Translations under genes and position numbers: made by a program
Origin: an uncultured Kocuria sp.
Lineage (GTDB): Bacteria > Actinomycetota > Actinomycetes > Actinomycetales > Micrococcaceae
DNA: 64,000 nucleotides
Reading direction: 5' to 3'
Assembly (NCBI RefSeq): GCF_947500125.1
Contig: NZ_CANMRA010000004.1
Location: 1-64,000 of the forward strand
Shown: positions 21,131 through 26,575 of the stretch, piece by piece
Numbering within the stretch: position 1 is the first letter of the stretch
How the letters are laid out: every line of letters begins with the position of its first letter
The notes under the pieces: model-generated
Seen by the model: only the letters and a program-made list of their open reading frames with translations
The model's database searches: none
Told to the model about the DNA's origin: nothing

Positions 21131-22573
21131 TCAGGCCTGCCGGGCGTGGACGGCGTCGGCGGATCCGGCCGCCACGAGCCGGCGGCGGTAGGACATGCCG
21201 CCGACCAGGGCGACCACGAACAGCACCGACATGGCGATGAACAGGGGCCACGGGCCGAACTGGTAGATCAGCGGCACCGACGCGGCGGTGATCAGCCCGC
21301 CGCCGAAGAACGGCTCGAAGAACAGCTGCTTGTAGCCGAAGGCCTCCATCGCGGGGCTCTCGTCGTGCGGGTCGGCGATGCGCATGAGGATGAGGCCGGT
21401 GGCGGTCACGCCCATGGACTGGCCGAAGTCCGCGATGCCGCGCTCGAGCCAGTAGTCGGGGATGACCTTGGGCACGAACAGGAGCAGGAAGCCGGTGCAG
21501 AAGACGACGCCGGCGACGGACAGGACCAGGAAGACCTCCCAGTTCGCGGCGATCGCGGTGAGGGACAGCGTCGCGATCGCGGCGAGGATCAGGAAGTCGA
21601 GGGCGAGGCCCTGGATGCGCAGCATCATCTGGTGGTCCAGCAGGTGGCCGATGCCCCGCCAGTCCATGACCAGCTGCACCACCACCCCGCCCAGCATGGC
21701 GAGCGGGAAGAGGGGCACGAACGCGAGCAGCTCCACGGTGTCCGCCCACAGCGCCTGCTCGACCCACTGCAGGGCCGAGAGCATGAGGTAGCCGATGAGG
21801 ATGGCGATCCCCACGACGGCCACGTGCAGGGTGAGCGGCTCGATCGAGGCCGGCCGGGAGGTCATCATGGCCGCGGGGATGTTCTCGTCCCGGCGGTAGA
21901 GCCCCTTCTGCTCCTCGACGGACTGCTCCACGTTGCCCTTGAGCACCTTGGTGCGCCCGGTGCGCACGCCCCAGTTGATGACGGCGATCCCGATGACGAT
22001 GCCGCCCACCAGGCCGATCGTGGCCATGCCCAGGGCCAGGTCCGCGCCGTCCTCGAAGCCCAGCTCCTCCATCACGGGGCGCATCCCGGCCGCCGTGCCG
22101 TGGCCGCCCTCGAAGCCGATCTCGATGAGGGCGCCGGCCATGGGGGAGATCCCGAACAGGGGACCGAGGACCGCGATCACCAGGAGCAGGCCGACGACGT
22201 ACTGGCCGGAGCCGAAGGCGAGACCCACCGACAGCTGCGGCCCGGCCAGCCGGGCGACGCGGCGGGGACCGGGGATGGACGCCCCGAGGAAGAGCGTCGC
22301 GAAGACCACGCTGATGAGCAGGCTGGGGAGCGTGGACCACACCTCGAGGATCTCCGGGGTGAAGACGCCCCCGTCCGCGAGCCAGCCGACGCCGGCGGCC
22401 TCGCCGAGACGGCCCAGGACCTGGGGGCCGGCCAGCAGGGCGAGGAAGCCCGCGATGATGGAGCTGGGCAGGAAGATCTTCTGGATCCACCGCACCCTGA
22501 CCCGCAACCACTTCCCCACGAGGAACAGTGCTGCCAACAGGATCAGGGCGAAACCGACGTGGTCGGGACTCAT
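21131..22573 (-). CDS. Sodium/glutamate symporter (GltS)-like carrier
   Basis: A 480-residue membrane protein with about twelve helices. The first half contains LPSSIIAGFLALL, SVGLAFGSGQYVVGLLL and EIGFEGGHGTAAGM. The last is the glycine-rich reentrant motif of GltS-type sodium:glutamate symporters. The second half contains the matching DFGQSMGVTATGLILMR and FFGGGLITAASVP. It is longer than classical GltS (about 400 residues) and may carry a different acid. ATG 22573 follows CCCAGGAGTCC. It is followed at six bases by the dienelactone hydrolase gene and is divergent from the DUF368 transporter. Confidence 0.85.
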   Translation of the reverse strand: MSPDHVGFALILLAALFLVGKWLRVRVRWIQKIFLPSSIIAGFLALLAGPQVLGRLGEAAGVGWLADGGVFTPEILEVWSTLPSLLISVVFATLFLGASIPGPRRVARLAGPQLSVGLAFGSGQYVVGLLLVIAVLGPLFGISPMAGALIEIGFEGGHGTAAGMRPVMEELGFEDGADLALGMATIGLVGGIVIGIAVINWGVRTGRTKVLKGNVEQSVEEQKGLYRRDENIPAAMMTSRPASIEPLTLHVAVVGIAILIGYLMLSALQWVEQALWADTVELLAFVPLFPLAMLGGVVVQLVMDWRGIGHLLDHQMMLRIQGLALDFLILAAIATLSLTAIAANWEVFLVLSVAGVVFCTGFLLLFVPKVIPDYWLERGIADFGQSMGVTATGLILMRIADPHDESPAMEAFGYKQLFFEPFFGGGLITAASVPLIYQFGPWPLFIAMSVLFVVALVGGMSYRRRLVAAGSADAVHARQA

Positions 22574-22754: not shown

Positions 22755-23786
22755 GTGACACCCTCGTCGCCCCCGGACCGTCCGTCGACACCGACGGTCA
22801 CCACCACGACCGCCGCCGCCGGCGGGGAGGTCCGCCGCAGCATCCCGGGCAACGTGGTGCGCGGAGCGCTCATCGGCGTGGTCGAGACCGTCCCCGGGGT
22901 CAGCGGCGGCACCGTTGCCCTCGTGGTCGGCATCTACGACGAGCTCATCAACTCCGCCGGTCACGTGGTGTCCGCCGGCAAGCGGGCCCTCCTCGGACCG
23001 GACCGCGCCGCCGGGGTGCGGCACCACCTGGCCCGGGTGCACTGGCGGATCGTGGTGCCCGTGGTGATCGGCATGGTCGCGGCCCTGCTCACCGTGGCCG
23101 GTCCCATGAGCCACCTCGTCGAGGAGTACCCGGTCACCATGCGGGCGCTGTTCTTCGGCATGGTCCTGGCCTCCATCGGGGTGCCCCTGCGCCTGGCGGG
23201 CGGGGCCCTGCGCGCCCGGGACGCGGTCGTGGTGGCGCTCGCGGCGGCGCTCGCGTTCGTGCTCGTGTCCATCCCGCCCACCACGGTCGCGCCCGCGCCG
23301 CTGCTCGTCGTGCTCGCGGCCATGGTCGCGGTGTCCGCGCTGCTGCTGCCCGGGCTCTCCGGCTCCTTCCTGCTGCTGACGATCGGGCTCTACCAGCCGA
23401 CGCTGCGGGCCGTCGACGAGCTCGACCTCGGCTACCTGTCCCTGTTCTTCCTGGGCGCCGGCCTGGGCATGGTGGTCATCGTCAAGGGTCTGCAGTGGCT
23501 CCTCGACCACCACCACCGGGTCACCATGCTGGCGCTCACCGGCCTCATGCTCGGCGCCCTGCGCACCCTGTGGCCCTGGCAGCTCGAGGACCGCACGCTG
23601 CTCTCCCCCGAGGGGGACTGGTGGGTCCAGCTGCTCGCGGCCGCGGCCGGCTGCGTCGTCGTCCTCGCCCTGCTGGCCGTCGACGCCCGCACCCGGGCGC
23701 GGACCGGGCACGGGTCCCAGGAGGAGCTCGCCGGCGTCGAGTCCGGCGACGAGGTTGCCGACGAGGCCACCGACAGCACCCGGTAG
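22755..23786 (+). CDS. DUF368 protein, PopT-type polyprenyl-phosphate transporter
   Basis: A 343-residue membrane protein with about eight to ten helices. The two DUF368 hallmark motifs are present: GVVETVPGVSGGTVAL (about 42-56) and LLPGLSGSFLLLTIGLYQP (about 197-215), the paired PG-x-SG repeats. DUF368 proteins (PopT) have been shown in other bacteria to return undecaprenyl phosphate across the membrane for cell-wall recycling. An N-terminal Thr/Pro/Ser-rich tail (1-25) and a polar C-terminal tail (from about 315) flank the core. GTG 22755 follows CAGGAGCACCC. The next gene lies 80 bases downstream on the same strand and may be co-transcribed. Confidence 0.88.
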   Translation: MTPSSPPDRPSTPTVTTTTAAAGGEVRRSIPGNVVRGALIGVVETVPGVSGGTVALVVGIYDELINSAGHVVSAGKRALLGPDRAAGVRHHLARVHWRIVVPVVIGMVAALLTVAGPMSHLVEEYPVTMRALFFGMVLASIGVPLRLAGGALRARDAVVVALAAALAFVLVSIPPTTVAPAPLLVVLAAMVAVSALLLPGLSGSFLLLTIGLYQPTLRAVDELDLGYLSLFFLGAGLGMVVIVKGLQWLLDHHHRVTMLALTGLMLGALRTLWPWQLEDRTLLSPEGDWWVQLLAAAAGCVVVLALLAVDARTRARTGHGSQEELAGVESGDEVADEATDSTR

Positions 23787-23866: not shown

Positions 23867-25348
23867 ATGGAGCACCTCACCCACTTCTCCCGGGAGTTCC
23901 TGAAGGCCCTGCGGAGTCTGCTGCCCATCGTGGTGGTGGTCGTGGTGTTCCAGCTGGCCGTGTTCCGGGAGGCCCCGGACCGGCCCCTGCAGCTCGTCGC
24001 CGGACTGCTGATCGTGGGCGCCGGCATCGCCCTGTTCCTGCACGGGCTGGACCTGAGCGTCTTCCCCGTGGGCAAGAACCTGGCCAACCAGTTCGCCCGC
24101 CGCGGCGCCCTGGGCCTGCTGCTGCCGTTCGGCTTCGCCATCGGCTTCGCCGCCTCGATCGCCGAGCCCGCGCTGATCGCCGTGGCCGCGCAGGCCGAGC
24201 TCGTGAGCGAGGGGCGCGTCGACGCCCTCACGCTGCGCCTCGTCGTCGCCGTGTCCGTGGGCGCGGTGCTCGTCCTCGGGATCCTGCGCATCCTCCGGGG
24301 CTGGGCCGTGCAGAAGCTGCTGATCCCCGGCTACGCGCTCGTGCTCGTCGTCACGTACGTCTCACCCCCGGAGATCGTCGGGCTCGCCTACGACTCCGGC
24401 GGCGTCACCACGAACATCGTCACCGTCCCCCTCATCGCCGCGATCGGGATCGGCCTGGCCAACTCGATCCGGGGCCGCAGCGCGCTCACGGACGGGTTCG
24501 GCCTCGTGGCCCTGTGCGTCATGGTGCCCATGATCGGCGTGCAGCTCTACGGCATCTGGGTCTACACCGTCGGCGACGCCGCGCCCGTCGGCGCCGACGC
24601 GTCCGGGGACGCCCCGGTGCACCCGGTCCTGGAGCACGTCCTGGGACTCGCGCAGATGATCCGGGACGTCCTGCCCATGGTGCTCGTGGTCCTGTTCTTC
24701 CAGTACGTCGTGCTGCGCCGCCGCCTGTCCCACCCGCTGCGCGTCGCCGTGGGCTTCGTGATGGTCCTCGTGGGGCTCTACGCGTTCGTCGTCGGGCTCA
24801 AGATCGGGCTCTTCCCGCTCGGGACGATGATGGCGGAGCAGCTGATCGCGCGTGGCGCGCCCGCCCTCATCCTGCTCTTCGCCCTGCTCATCGGCTTCGC
24901 CACGACCATGGCCGAGCCGGCCCTCGTGGCCATCGGCGAGCAGGCGGAGGCGGCCTCGCCGGGCAGGATCAGCGGCTCCACCATCCGGCTCGTCGTGGCC
25001 GTCGGCGTGGCGGTCGGCATCACCCTGGGCGTGTACCGCATCCTCGTGGGAGCACCGTTGCACTACGTGATCATGGCGGCCTACGCCGTGGTCCTCGTCC
25101 TGGTCCTGCTGGCGCCGAAGTACATCGTGGCCCTCGCCTTCGACCTCGGGGGCGTCACCACCTCGGAGGTCACCGTGCCCCTCGTGACCGCCCTGGGCAT
25201 CGGGCTCGCGGGCGCGATCGAGGGCCGGGACGTGCTGATCGACGGCTTCGGCCTGATCGCCTTCGCCTCCATCTTCCCGATCATCTCCGTGCTCGGGTAC
25301 GCCATGATCCTGGAGAGGATCCCCCGCCTGCAGAAGGAGCCGACATGA
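23867..25348 (+). CDS. DUF1538 membrane protein with internal duplication
   Basis: A 493-residue integral membrane protein made of two DUF1538 repeats. The motifs recur at an exact spacing of 250 residues: AEPAL at 99-103 and 349-353, GGVTT at 178-182 and 428-432, and DGFGL at 209-213 and 459-463. Each half has about six helices, with IGFAxxxAEPAL as a likely reentrant or pore motif. This points to a transporter with internal pseudo-symmetry. Its substrate is unknown to me. The stop overlaps the ATG of a PII-like gene by four bases, and a CBS-domain gene follows, suggesting gating by nucleotide or metabolite sensors. ATG 23867 follows GGAGGAGGTCCGGCAGCGCCC. Confidence 0.85.
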   Translation: MEHLTHFSREFLKALRSLLPIVVVVVVFQLAVFREAPDRPLQLVAGLLIVGAGIALFLHGLDLSVFPVGKNLANQFARRGALGLLLPFGFAIGFAASIAEPALIAVAAQAELVSEGRVDALTLRLVVAVSVGAVLVLGILRILRGWAVQKLLIPGYALVLVVTYVSPPEIVGLAYDSGGVTTNIVTVPLIAAIGIGLANSIRGRSALTDGFGLVALCVMVPMIGVQLYGIWVYTVGDAAPVGADASGDAPVHPVLEHVLGLAQMIRDVLPMVLVVLFFQYVVLRRRLSHPLRVAVGFVMVLVGLYAFVVGLKIGLFPLGTMMAEQLIARGAPALILLFALLIGFATTMAEPALVAIGEQAEAASPGRISGSTIRLVVAVGVAVGITLGVYRILVGAPLHYVIMAAYAVVLVLVLLAPKYIVALAFDLGGVTTSEVTVPLVTALGIGLAGAIEGRDVLIDGFGLIAFASIFPIISVLGYAMILERIPRLQKEPT

Positions 25349-25701
25349 AGTTCACCGCCGTGGTGGTCATCGCCCCCGACGACCTCGAGGACACCGTCAT
25401 CGAGCAGGCCCAGCGCGCCGGGGCCACGGGCGTGACCATCCTCCCGGGCAAGGGCATCGGGGGCGAGGCCAAGCGCACGTTCTTCGGCCTGACGTTCGAA
25501 GGGTCCCAGACCGTGCTCCTGATGGTCGTGGGCACGCACCTGGCCACCCCGATCCTCAAGGTGCTGCACGACATCCTGATCGACGACGACGACGGCGGCT
25601 CCCGCGGCATCGCCTTCTCCGTGCCCATCGACCACCTCACCGGCATCGACATGCAGCAGGTCGCCCGGTTCGAGGAGCACATGCGCCGTGAGGGCGCCTG
25701 A
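25345..25701 (+). CDS. PII-like regulatory protein linked to DUF1538
   Basis: A 118-residue protein with the PII/GlnB ferredoxin-like fold: a first strand MKFTAVVVIAP, helix DLEDTVIEQAQRAGATGVT, and a loop PGKGIGGEAKRTFFGL. A second beta-alpha-beta unit follows (TVLLMVVGTHLATPILKVL). The T-loop region lacks the Tyr that is uridylylated in GlnB/GlnK, and the C-terminus is not of the classical type, so it belongs to the wider PII-like superfamily. Such proteins usually bind adenine nucleotides and dock onto a transporter encoded next door. Here the ATG overlaps the stop of the DUF1538 gene, strong evidence for a functional pair. Confidence 0.82.
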   Translation: MKFTAVVVIAPDDLEDTVIEQAQRAGATGVTILPGKGIGGEAKRTFFGLTFEGSQTVLLMVVGTHLATPILKVLHDILIDDDDGGSRGIAFSVPIDHLTGIDMQQVARFEEHMRREGA

Positions 25702-25747
25702 GCCGACCCCCGTTCGAGTCCCGTTCGAGATCTCCAGGAGGACCCCC

Positions 25748-26137
25748 GTGCTGACCGTCAAGGACGTCATGGTGCGCGACGTCATCACCATCTCCCCCTA
25801 CAGCACCCTGCGGGAGGCGCTGTCGACCATGCGCACCCGCCAGGTCAAGAGCCTGGTGGTGGAGCCGCAGCACCCCCACGACGGCTACGGGCTGCTCAGC
25901 TACAGCGAGCTGCTGCACGCCATCGTGGCGGAGGAGGGGGACGTGGACCTCCTCAACGTCTACGACGCCGCCGTCAAGCCGGTGGTCACCGTCGGGGAGG
26001 ACCTCTCCGTGAACCAGGCCGCGGCGCTGATGACCCGCTTCCACCTCAACCGCCTGGTGGTGGTGCAGGGCAACGAGCTCATCGGACTGCTGGCGATGAA
26101 CGACATCCTGGCGCGGCTCATCAGCGACCTCACCTGA
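25748..26137 (+). CDS. CBS-domain pair protein
   Basis: A 129-residue cytosolic protein of two CBS domains: VKDVMVRDVITISPYSTLREAL and later KPVVTVGEDLSVNQAAALM, ending in LIGLLAMNDILARL. CBS pairs (Bateman modules) bind AMP, ATP or S-adenosyl compounds and tune transporters and enzymes. An insertion (about 41-70) between strands of the first domain carries acidic residues. GTG 25748 follows CCAGGAGGACCCCC. It lies 46 bases after the PII-like gene and is the last gene before a bidirectional terminator, so it belongs to the DUF1538 operon. Confidence 0.85.
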   Translation: MLTVKDVMVRDVITISPYSTLREALSTMRTRQVKSLVVEPQHPHDGYGLLSYSELLHAIVAEEGDVDLLNVYDAAVKPVVTVGEDLSVNQAAALMTRFHLNRLVVVQGNELIGLLAMNDILARLISDLT

Positions 26138-26160
26138 CCCGCCCCGCCCGCGGCATCTCC

Positions 26161-26187
26161 GGCCTCGAGGGCCTCGAGGGCCTCGAA
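26161..26187. repeat. Three tandem 9-bp copies of GGCCTCGAG
   Basis: GGCCTCGAG occurs twice exactly and a third time as GGCCTCGAA, directly after the stop of the CBS gene. The unit contains a palindromic CTCGAG, so the array can fold on itself. Confidence 0.6.
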
Positions 26188-26252
26188 GGCGGCGGGCGGC
26201 CGTCCCGTGCGCTGACGGGTCTGGTTCTGTCGGTCCGAGCAGTGCAATCCGA

Positions 26253-26299
26253 CGGAACGGGACTCCTCGCGGTGGCAGGAGGCGGAACGGGACTCCTCG
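26253..26299. repeat. Pair of 17-bp direct repeats, 30-bp period
   Basis: CGGAACGGGACTCCTCG occurs at 26253-26269 and again at 26283-26299. It lies in the non-coding spacer between convergent genes. It may be a duplicated scrap or two binding sites; nothing decides between them. Confidence 0.6.
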
Positions 26300-26323
26300 T
26301 GGACGAGAGGCGGGGCACGGCGA

Positions 26324-26357
26324 AGGGCCCCGGCGTCGACTGCGACACCGGGGCCCT
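26324..26357. terminator. Bidirectional terminator between CBS and CsbD genes
   Basis: AGGGCCCCGG pairs with CCGGGGCCCT, and after one mismatch GTCG pairs with CGAC, leaving a four-base loop. It sits between the ends of two convergent genes and probably stops transcription from both sides. Confidence 0.7.
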
Positions 26358-26386
26358 CCGTGTGGTTCGACGGCTGAACCGTGCTG

Positions 26387-26575
26387 CTACATTCCGTCCT
26401 TGAAGTTCTTGCCCGCGTCCTTGACGTTCTCGCCGGCCTGCTTGGCGCTGCCGGACATCTTGTCCGCCTGGCCCTCGGCCTGGAGGTCGCGGTTGTCGGT
26501 GGCGTCGCCGACCTTTTCCTTAGCGGTGCCGCCCGCCTTCTCCGCGGCGTTGCTGATCTTGTCTCCGAGTCCCAT
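26387..26575 (-). CDS. CsbD family stress protein
   Basis: A 62-residue hydrophilic, helix-prone protein of the CsbD family. It has the repeating A-E-K-A-x-G-x-A-K-E-K-V-G-D-A-T-D-N pattern followed by LQAEGQADKM. CsbD-like proteins are induced by general stress and resemble late-embryogenesis-type proteins; the molecular role is not settled. ATG 26575 follows GGAGGGAGAGCCC. It is monocistronic, facing the DUF1538 operon across a shared terminator. Confidence 0.88.
   Translation of the reverse strand: MGLGDKISNAAEKAGGTAKEKVGDATDNRDLQAEGQADKMSGSAKQAGENVKDAGKNFKDGM

Follow-up and report, generated by a model that had tools for sequence, protein, structure and literature searches.

The window analysed here is the whole 64,000-nucleotide stretch of an uncultured Kocuria sp. 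(genome size 4.31 Mb). In its forward strand we found a DUF1538 membrane protein gene followed by a PII-like gene and a CBS-pair gene, with a PopT-type gene just upstream. The features are as follows (window coordinates).

22755..23786, + strand, PopT/VCA0040-like polyprenyl-phosphate transporter (PF04018)
23867..25348, + strand, DUF1538 double-domain membrane protein, 493 aa (Pfam PF07556 twice, E 7.6e-130)
23927-24556 and 24680-25309, + strand, the two PF07556 domains (Pfam), fused UmpA-like and UmpB-like halves
25345..25701, + strand, PII-like protein, 118 aa (PF00543, 30.4 bits)
25748..26137, + strand, CBS-pair protein, 129 aa (PF00571, 3.2e-21), GTG start with AGGAGG upstream
26324..26357, + strand, GC-rich hairpin without a T run, in the interval between the CBS gene and a convergent CsbD-like gene

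The DUF1538 double domain scores 431 bits against a Pfam gathering score of 22.6 and is a member of PF07556. The PII-like protein, at 30.4 bits against a gathering score of 25 for PF00543, belongs to the PII superfamily. The first-pass annotation, made from the sequence alone, described an overlap of the DUF1538 stop with the PII-like start and a 46-base gap between the PII-like and CBS genes. Both are correct: the overlap is ATGA at 25345-25348 and the gap spans 25702-25747. The same annotation let the transcript end at a terminator at the end of the CBS gene. A terminator immediately 3' of this gene was rejected, because folding of 26138-26210 is at shuffle level (z 0.18) and the consensus scan has no entry there. 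A strong hairpin is found about 190 bases beyond the CBS stop region, at 26324-26357 (z -4.05 for 26296-26370 versus shuffles), and it is a possible transcript end. It lies between the operon and a convergent gene for a CsbD-like protein (PF05532, window 26387-26575, - strand). No Rfam family was found at its gathering score anywhere in the window. A sodium/glutamate symporter family protein (PF03616, window 21131-22573, - strand) is encoded divergently from the PopT-type gene and is a further Na+-linked transporter near the DUF1538 operon.

Conservation of the gene arrangement

In a scan of genome contigs with the A1 profile, at least 584 of 591 candidate stretches were confirmed. The best 80 loci were taken for neighbourhood analysis, and this sample is skewed to relatives of the window's protein because only the best 80 were used. 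A survey of DUF1538 neighbourhoods for PII-like and CBS partners had been suggested in the first-pass annotation, and the three-gene order proved to be conserved. In 77 of the best 80 loci a PII-like gene sits no more than 500 bases from DUF1538, on the same strand, and in 63 of the 80 it is found together with a CBS-pair gene. In the three exceptions (L054, L075, and L103) the contig ends 53, 80, and 93 bases past the DUF1538 domain. The gene order in the best 80 loci is mostly as in the window; PII precedes DUF1538 in L082, L110, and L114. In 55 of the 80 the two DUF1538 halves are fused into one gene. Among the holders are Arthrobacter, Nesterenkonia, Halomonas, Marinobacter, Oceanospirillum, Thioalkalivibrio, Halorhodospira, Shewanella, Sulfurimonas, Arcobacter, cable bacteria, Bacteroidetes, and Scalindua, and the DUF1538-PII pair occurs among the best 80 in Proteobacteria, Campylobacterota, Bacteroidota, and Actinobacteria.

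In the phylum sample (246 genomes), DUF1538 was detected in 17 genomes and all 17 carry a PII-like stretch within 200 bases. Within flanks of about 1.5 kb or less, a CBS match was detected in the window's genome only and in none of the other 16 DUF1538 genomes. DUF1538 and PII form the core of the unit and CBS is a common addition; CBS is not counted as core because of these 16 genomes and of the 14 among the best 80 loci that have PII without CBS. We also searched open reading frames of at least 80 aa around the loci. Inspection of the 14 largest clusters of these neighbours revealed no consistently placed further gene: most were antisense or other-frame reading frames of the operon itself, and others were response regulators, at varying positions in 21 loci, and universal stress proteins, in 5 loci.

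The PII-like protein tracks DUF1538

In the order sample, DUF1538 has a match in five of 396 genomes, four of them over the cut-off. The PII-like profile (A3) was built on the PII-like protein of the window plus 73 of the 100 further distinct PII-like rows. It matched 100 of the 396 order genomes, and scores of 130-138 bits were reached only in the window's genome (G000), G480, G501, and G274, which are exactly the four order genomes with DUF1538 over the cut-off. The top score in the other 392 genomes was 30.5 bits; matches at this level or below are likely ordinary PII. The window's genome encodes one separate canonical PII elsewhere (100.9 bits). Since high A3 scores track DUF1538, the PII-like protein behaves as a DUF1538-specific subfamily and not as a nitrogen PII.

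In 10 of the best 80 loci, all from Arcobacter/Sulfurimonas relatives, DUF1538-DUF1538-PII is encoded in one open frame (L067, L068, L069, L073, L074, L078, L079, L080, L081, and L117). No CBS match was found in these ten loci. Nine of the ten are present in the tree and form one clade (100/99), so the joining of the frames was probably one event. G480 and G501, which belong to the same family as the window organism, have PII and CBS in one open frame; a single event probably explains this as well, and an internal start within the PII-CBS frame is possible. Pfam analysis of four single-frame ORFs (L035, L067, L117, and L080) detected all expected domains. Conservation and the single-frame fusions together back the operon-like unit of a transporter with PII-like and CBS partners that had been proposed from this one locus.

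The fused DUF1538 rows number 56. The A2 set (52 rows) omits five partial or odd rows (L079, L083, L101, L103, and L106) and is also without L035, L037, and L039. DUF1538 and PII trees were made with 50 of the 52 rows each (L054 and L075 end before PII) and rooted at midpoints. A 17-row clade is found in both trees (DUF1538, 100/99; PII, 97/93). It consists of the window, its family mates G480 and G501, three named Micrococcaceae, Halomonadaceae, Marinobacter, and the Oceanospirillaceae (Marinobacterium and Oceanospirillum). The tree pattern fits a transfer of the unit between Gammaproteobacteria and Micrococcaceae, whose direction is a matter of inference because the roots are midpoints. L070 has a long branch in the trees.

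Topology of DUF1538

Hydropathy indicates seven segments per DUF1538 half, with approximate segment boundaries, and the DUF1538 profile has no match to solved structures at E up to 5. Charge bias was determined by counting K and R on alternate loops in the 52 A2 rows. In 51 of 52 rows, with one row reversed, the first half has its K and R excess on one side; the second half has it on the opposite side, also in 51 of 52 (one tie). The same is seen in 35 split gene pairs, which include the non-standard pair L029 and L083 (a locus with other broken frames): 31 first genes show the first-half bias and 34 second genes the second-half bias. The opposite charge bias in the two halves suggests that DUF1538 is built of antiparallel 7+7 repeats. 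Both ends of the fused chain would then lie in the cytoplasm, the expected site of a fused PII domain. In five genomes with a single DUF1538 match (L014-L018 in G053, G216, G041, G011, and G026) the lone gene is adjoined by PII. Its loop charges are nearly balanced (4-5 versus 3-4), and these proteins are candidate dual-topology homodimers. The charge patterns suggest an evolutionary series from a single dual-topology gene to a pair and then to a fusion, a series that has been proposed for inverted-repeat transporters in general (PMC6805155).

Relationship to UmpAB

No assigned substrate for DUF1538 was known to the first-pass annotation. This was mistaken: DUF1538 corresponds to the UmpAB family, whose Halomonas member was shown to exchange Na+ (Li+, K+) for H+ (PMC5484666). 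Meng et al. (2017) screened Halomonas zhaodongensis DNA in E. coli KNabc, in which umpA and umpB together conferred Na+ and Li+ tolerance; antiport of Na+ (Li+, K+) against H+ by UmpAB was optimal at pH 9.0 (PMC5484666). UmpAB homologs are found in saltwater or brackish strains of cable bacteria (PMC10030654, PMC12093952). UmpAB was active in E. coli from umpA and umpB alone (PMC5484666), and therefore PII and CBS are not required for transport. A term search of PMC5484666 (main text), PMC10030654, and PMC12093952 found no mention of a PII or CBS partner, and the open-access literature listings examined showed no paper that connects DUF1538/UmpAB with PII or CBS.

Among NCBIfam models the window's DUF1538 protein matches UmpA and UmpB only (NF041627/NF041628), with scores of 427.3 and 374 that fall below the equivalog cut-offs of 490 and 500. 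The residues common to UmpA and UmpB homologs include three R, two D, and one E (PMC5484666; counts, not positions). This six-charge signature is present in the first half of the window's protein (E100, R124, R141, D176, R204, and D209) and in the second half (E350, R374, R391, D426, R454, and D459), and each charge is kept in 47 to 52 of the 52 A2 rows. The likeness to UmpAB of H. zhaodongensis thus comprises the Pfam family, the two homologous halves, and the number and kind of charged residues per half, while UmpA and UmpB are encoded by separate genes there and by one chain in the window. The best reading is that the window's DUF1538 protein is a monovalent cation/proton antiporter, with the putative antiport activity taken from the published work on the homolog.

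The PII-like and CBS sensors

GlnB and GlnK are uridylylated on a T-loop tyrosine. The first-pass annotation noted the absence of this Tyr in the PII-like protein, which in fact contains no tyrosine at all and so lacks the canonical GlnB/GlnK T-loop residue; it has no Cys either. Conserved positions in the family are G26, A27, G29, T31, G37, G48, G88, and G100, and most members carry a K-T-F-F-G-L stretch within a short T-loop. In canonical PII, GDGK of the B-loop and C-terminal Arg residues hold the ATP phosphates. The family consensus GkGiaf and aGIe is aligned to GDGKIF and VRVR of MJ0059, and the window's protein reads G-S-R-G-I-A-F at the B-loop in place of the canonical GDGK. Since the family does not keep the B-loop or the C-terminal basic positions of classical PII, ordinary ATP binding is doubtful. 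AMP-type binding, by analogy to SbtB, is possible. The C-terminal CGPxGC redox loop that is a feature of some SbtBs (PMC8352866) is missing from the window's protein, as it contains no Cys.

The nearest solved relative of the CBS protein is CBS-CP12 (5nmu; E 8.7e-20, residues 2-123). CBS-CP12 is a chain of 208 residues compared with 129 here, and the CP12 part is absent from the window's protein. In the second motif, the Asp is retained by 92% of those CBS family rows that have a residue there (65 rows).

Comparison with known PII-regulated transporters

PII proteins regulate ammonium, nitrate, urea, and bicarbonate transporters. We know of no example of a PII-gated ion/proton antiporter. In the available text of a 2023 review, no cation/proton antiporter is named among the PII targets, and the use of PII seems restricted to transporters able to work as trimers (PMC10710835). 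AmtB is genetically linked to its PII partner GlnK (PMC10710835), as DUF1538 is to its PII-like partner here; AmtB is an ammonium channel, however, and GlnK is uridylylated whereas the window's PII-like protein has no Tyr. The cyanobacterial bicarbonate transporter SbtA-SbtB pairs an inverted-repeat secondary transporter with a PII-like partner in one operon, as here, and the SbtB trimer was solved with AMP, its T-loop inserted into a cleft of trimeric SbtA (PMC8352866). SbtA differs in its 5+5 architecture and in taking up bicarbonate with Na+, while DUF1538 looks 7+7. Each component is of a known kind. The open-access literature searched yielded no description of a cation/proton antiporter family that has its own PII-like partner.

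Proposed mechanism and alternative explanations

The gene order, its conservation, the shared frames, the co-occurrence, and the charge bias that bears on topology were all observed directly. We consider it fairly probable that the operon encodes a monovalent cation/proton antiporter of the UmpAB type, a PII-like regulatory subunit dedicated to it, and an accessory CBS-pair sensor. The two halves of DUF1538 would form antiparallel seven-segment repeats with both chain ends in the cytoplasm. A PII-like trimer would dock on the cytoplasmic face of the antiporter, probably via the short FFG loop, and would open or close it in response to a small molecule, with an adenylate such as AMP as the likeliest candidate, in a manner likened to the action of SbtB on SbtA. 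The frames shared by PII and DUF1538 speak indirectly for such binding. The CBS protein would add a second adenylate input through PII. Since umpA and umpB suffice for activity, PII would be a modulator of the antiporter outside the transport path. What we infer in this best explanation is the docking of PII, whether it restrains or releases the antiporter, which ligand it binds, and that it acts as a trimer. Whether DUF1538 antiporters in general are under PII control, with PII as a standing and sometimes fused subunit, a trimeric, adenylate-responsive antiporter, and CBS as a second input via PII, is a closer call, and we propose it tentatively, at slightly less than even likelihood. The observation in the first-pass annotation (three genes as placed, their order conserved) was correct and understated; its interpretation as a transport system gated through two separate sensors stands only in part.

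By analogy to SbtA-SbtB, the DUF1538-PII pair might mainly transport another solute, e.g., bicarbonate, with antiport in E. coli as a side activity. Several holders belong to Thioalkalivibrio, Sulfurimonas, and Halothiobacillus, genera of sulfur-oxidizers, and both the distant SbtB match of the PII profile (E 6e-4, limited to positions 6-42) and the DUF1538 profile without a solved-structure match at E up to 5 leave room for it. The same operon is found, however, in the heterotrophs Arthrobacter, Halomonas, Marinobacter, and Shewanella. UmpAB was moreover isolated through the Na+ resistance that it gave and exchanged Na+, Li+, and K+ for protons (PMC5484666). We regard another main solute as rather unlikely. 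A different ligand would be involved if the PII-like and CBS proteins were c-di-AMP receptors that couple the antiporter to an osmotic second messenger. A PII-like protein that acts as a c-di-AMP receptor is known in PstA (PMC4316997), the CBS domains of some transporters bind this nucleotide (PMC10710835), and the window's genome has a gene with a diadenylate cyclase (DAC) domain. This domain was detected in 8 of 29 selected operon-bearing genomes (L070 not included; completeness mostly not given), and none was found in the Halomonas, Marinobacter, Oceanospirillum, Thioalkalivibrio, and Campylobacterota genomes of the 29. On this count c-di-AMP was judged unlikely to be the general ligand, which makes an adenylate such as AMP likelier, and we hold the reading as c-di-AMP receptors to be unlikely.

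It is very unlikely, in our estimate, that the PII-like and CBS proteins are merely co-transcribed with DUF1538 and have their targets elsewhere. A PII protein may act on more than one target (PMC10710835) and UmpAB works in E. coli without PII or CBS (PMC5484666), but PII and DUF1538 share a single frame in 10 of the best 80 loci, PII and CBS do so in two genomes, and the PII-like profile does not exceed 30.5 bits in the other 392 of 396 order genomes. If the preferred reading of a PII-controlled cation/proton antiporter is true, PII control would extend to Na+ and pH homeostasis; under the broader, tentative reading that DUF1538 antiporters in general are PII-controlled, the energy state would be coupled directly to this homeostasis in saline and alkaline bacteria. 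UmpAB, previously assayed with umpA and umpB alone, would gain a regulatory context. The natural DUF1538-PII single frames, for example that of Poseidonibacter (L067), are single-chain objects for structure work.

Unusual loci and the PopT-type neighbor

A few loci deviate from the common arrangement. In Nitrincola (L083, 3265-8153), a unit of a split DUF1538 pair, PII, and CBS lies directly 5' of a second, frame-broken DUF1538-PII-CBS unit; with an extra PII upstream, the total is three PII-like genes in 5 kb. A second PII-like gene is found upstream of DUF1538, besides the downstream copy, in L046 (5620-5916) and L049 (340-654), and mixed PII trimers are possible there. In Nesterenkonia pannonica (L106, 5980-7774) both the DUF1538 frame and the PII frame are broken, which may reflect operon decay or sequence errors. 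One weak DUF1538 match under the cut-off contains an internal stop (L034 in G605) and is a possible remnant or a chance match.

The PopT-type gene upstream of the operon is real and separated from the DUF1538 gene by 80 bases, and it had been suggested to be part of the same transcript. It is not a conserved neighbor: no PopT match was found in the eight nearest related loci (L128, L129, L130, L038, L039, L040, L070, and L106), and a PopT profile run over L001-L117, which a distant PopT could escape, matched the window's own gene alone. A weak match in L017 (E 3.7e-4) was rejected as a universal stress protein on inspection. The PopT-type gene probably lies outside the conserved unit. A functional neighborhood of PopT and the DUF1538 operon is thinkable, because DUF368 proteins are important at alkaline pH, and with Na+ in Vibrio cholerae (PMC9876793).
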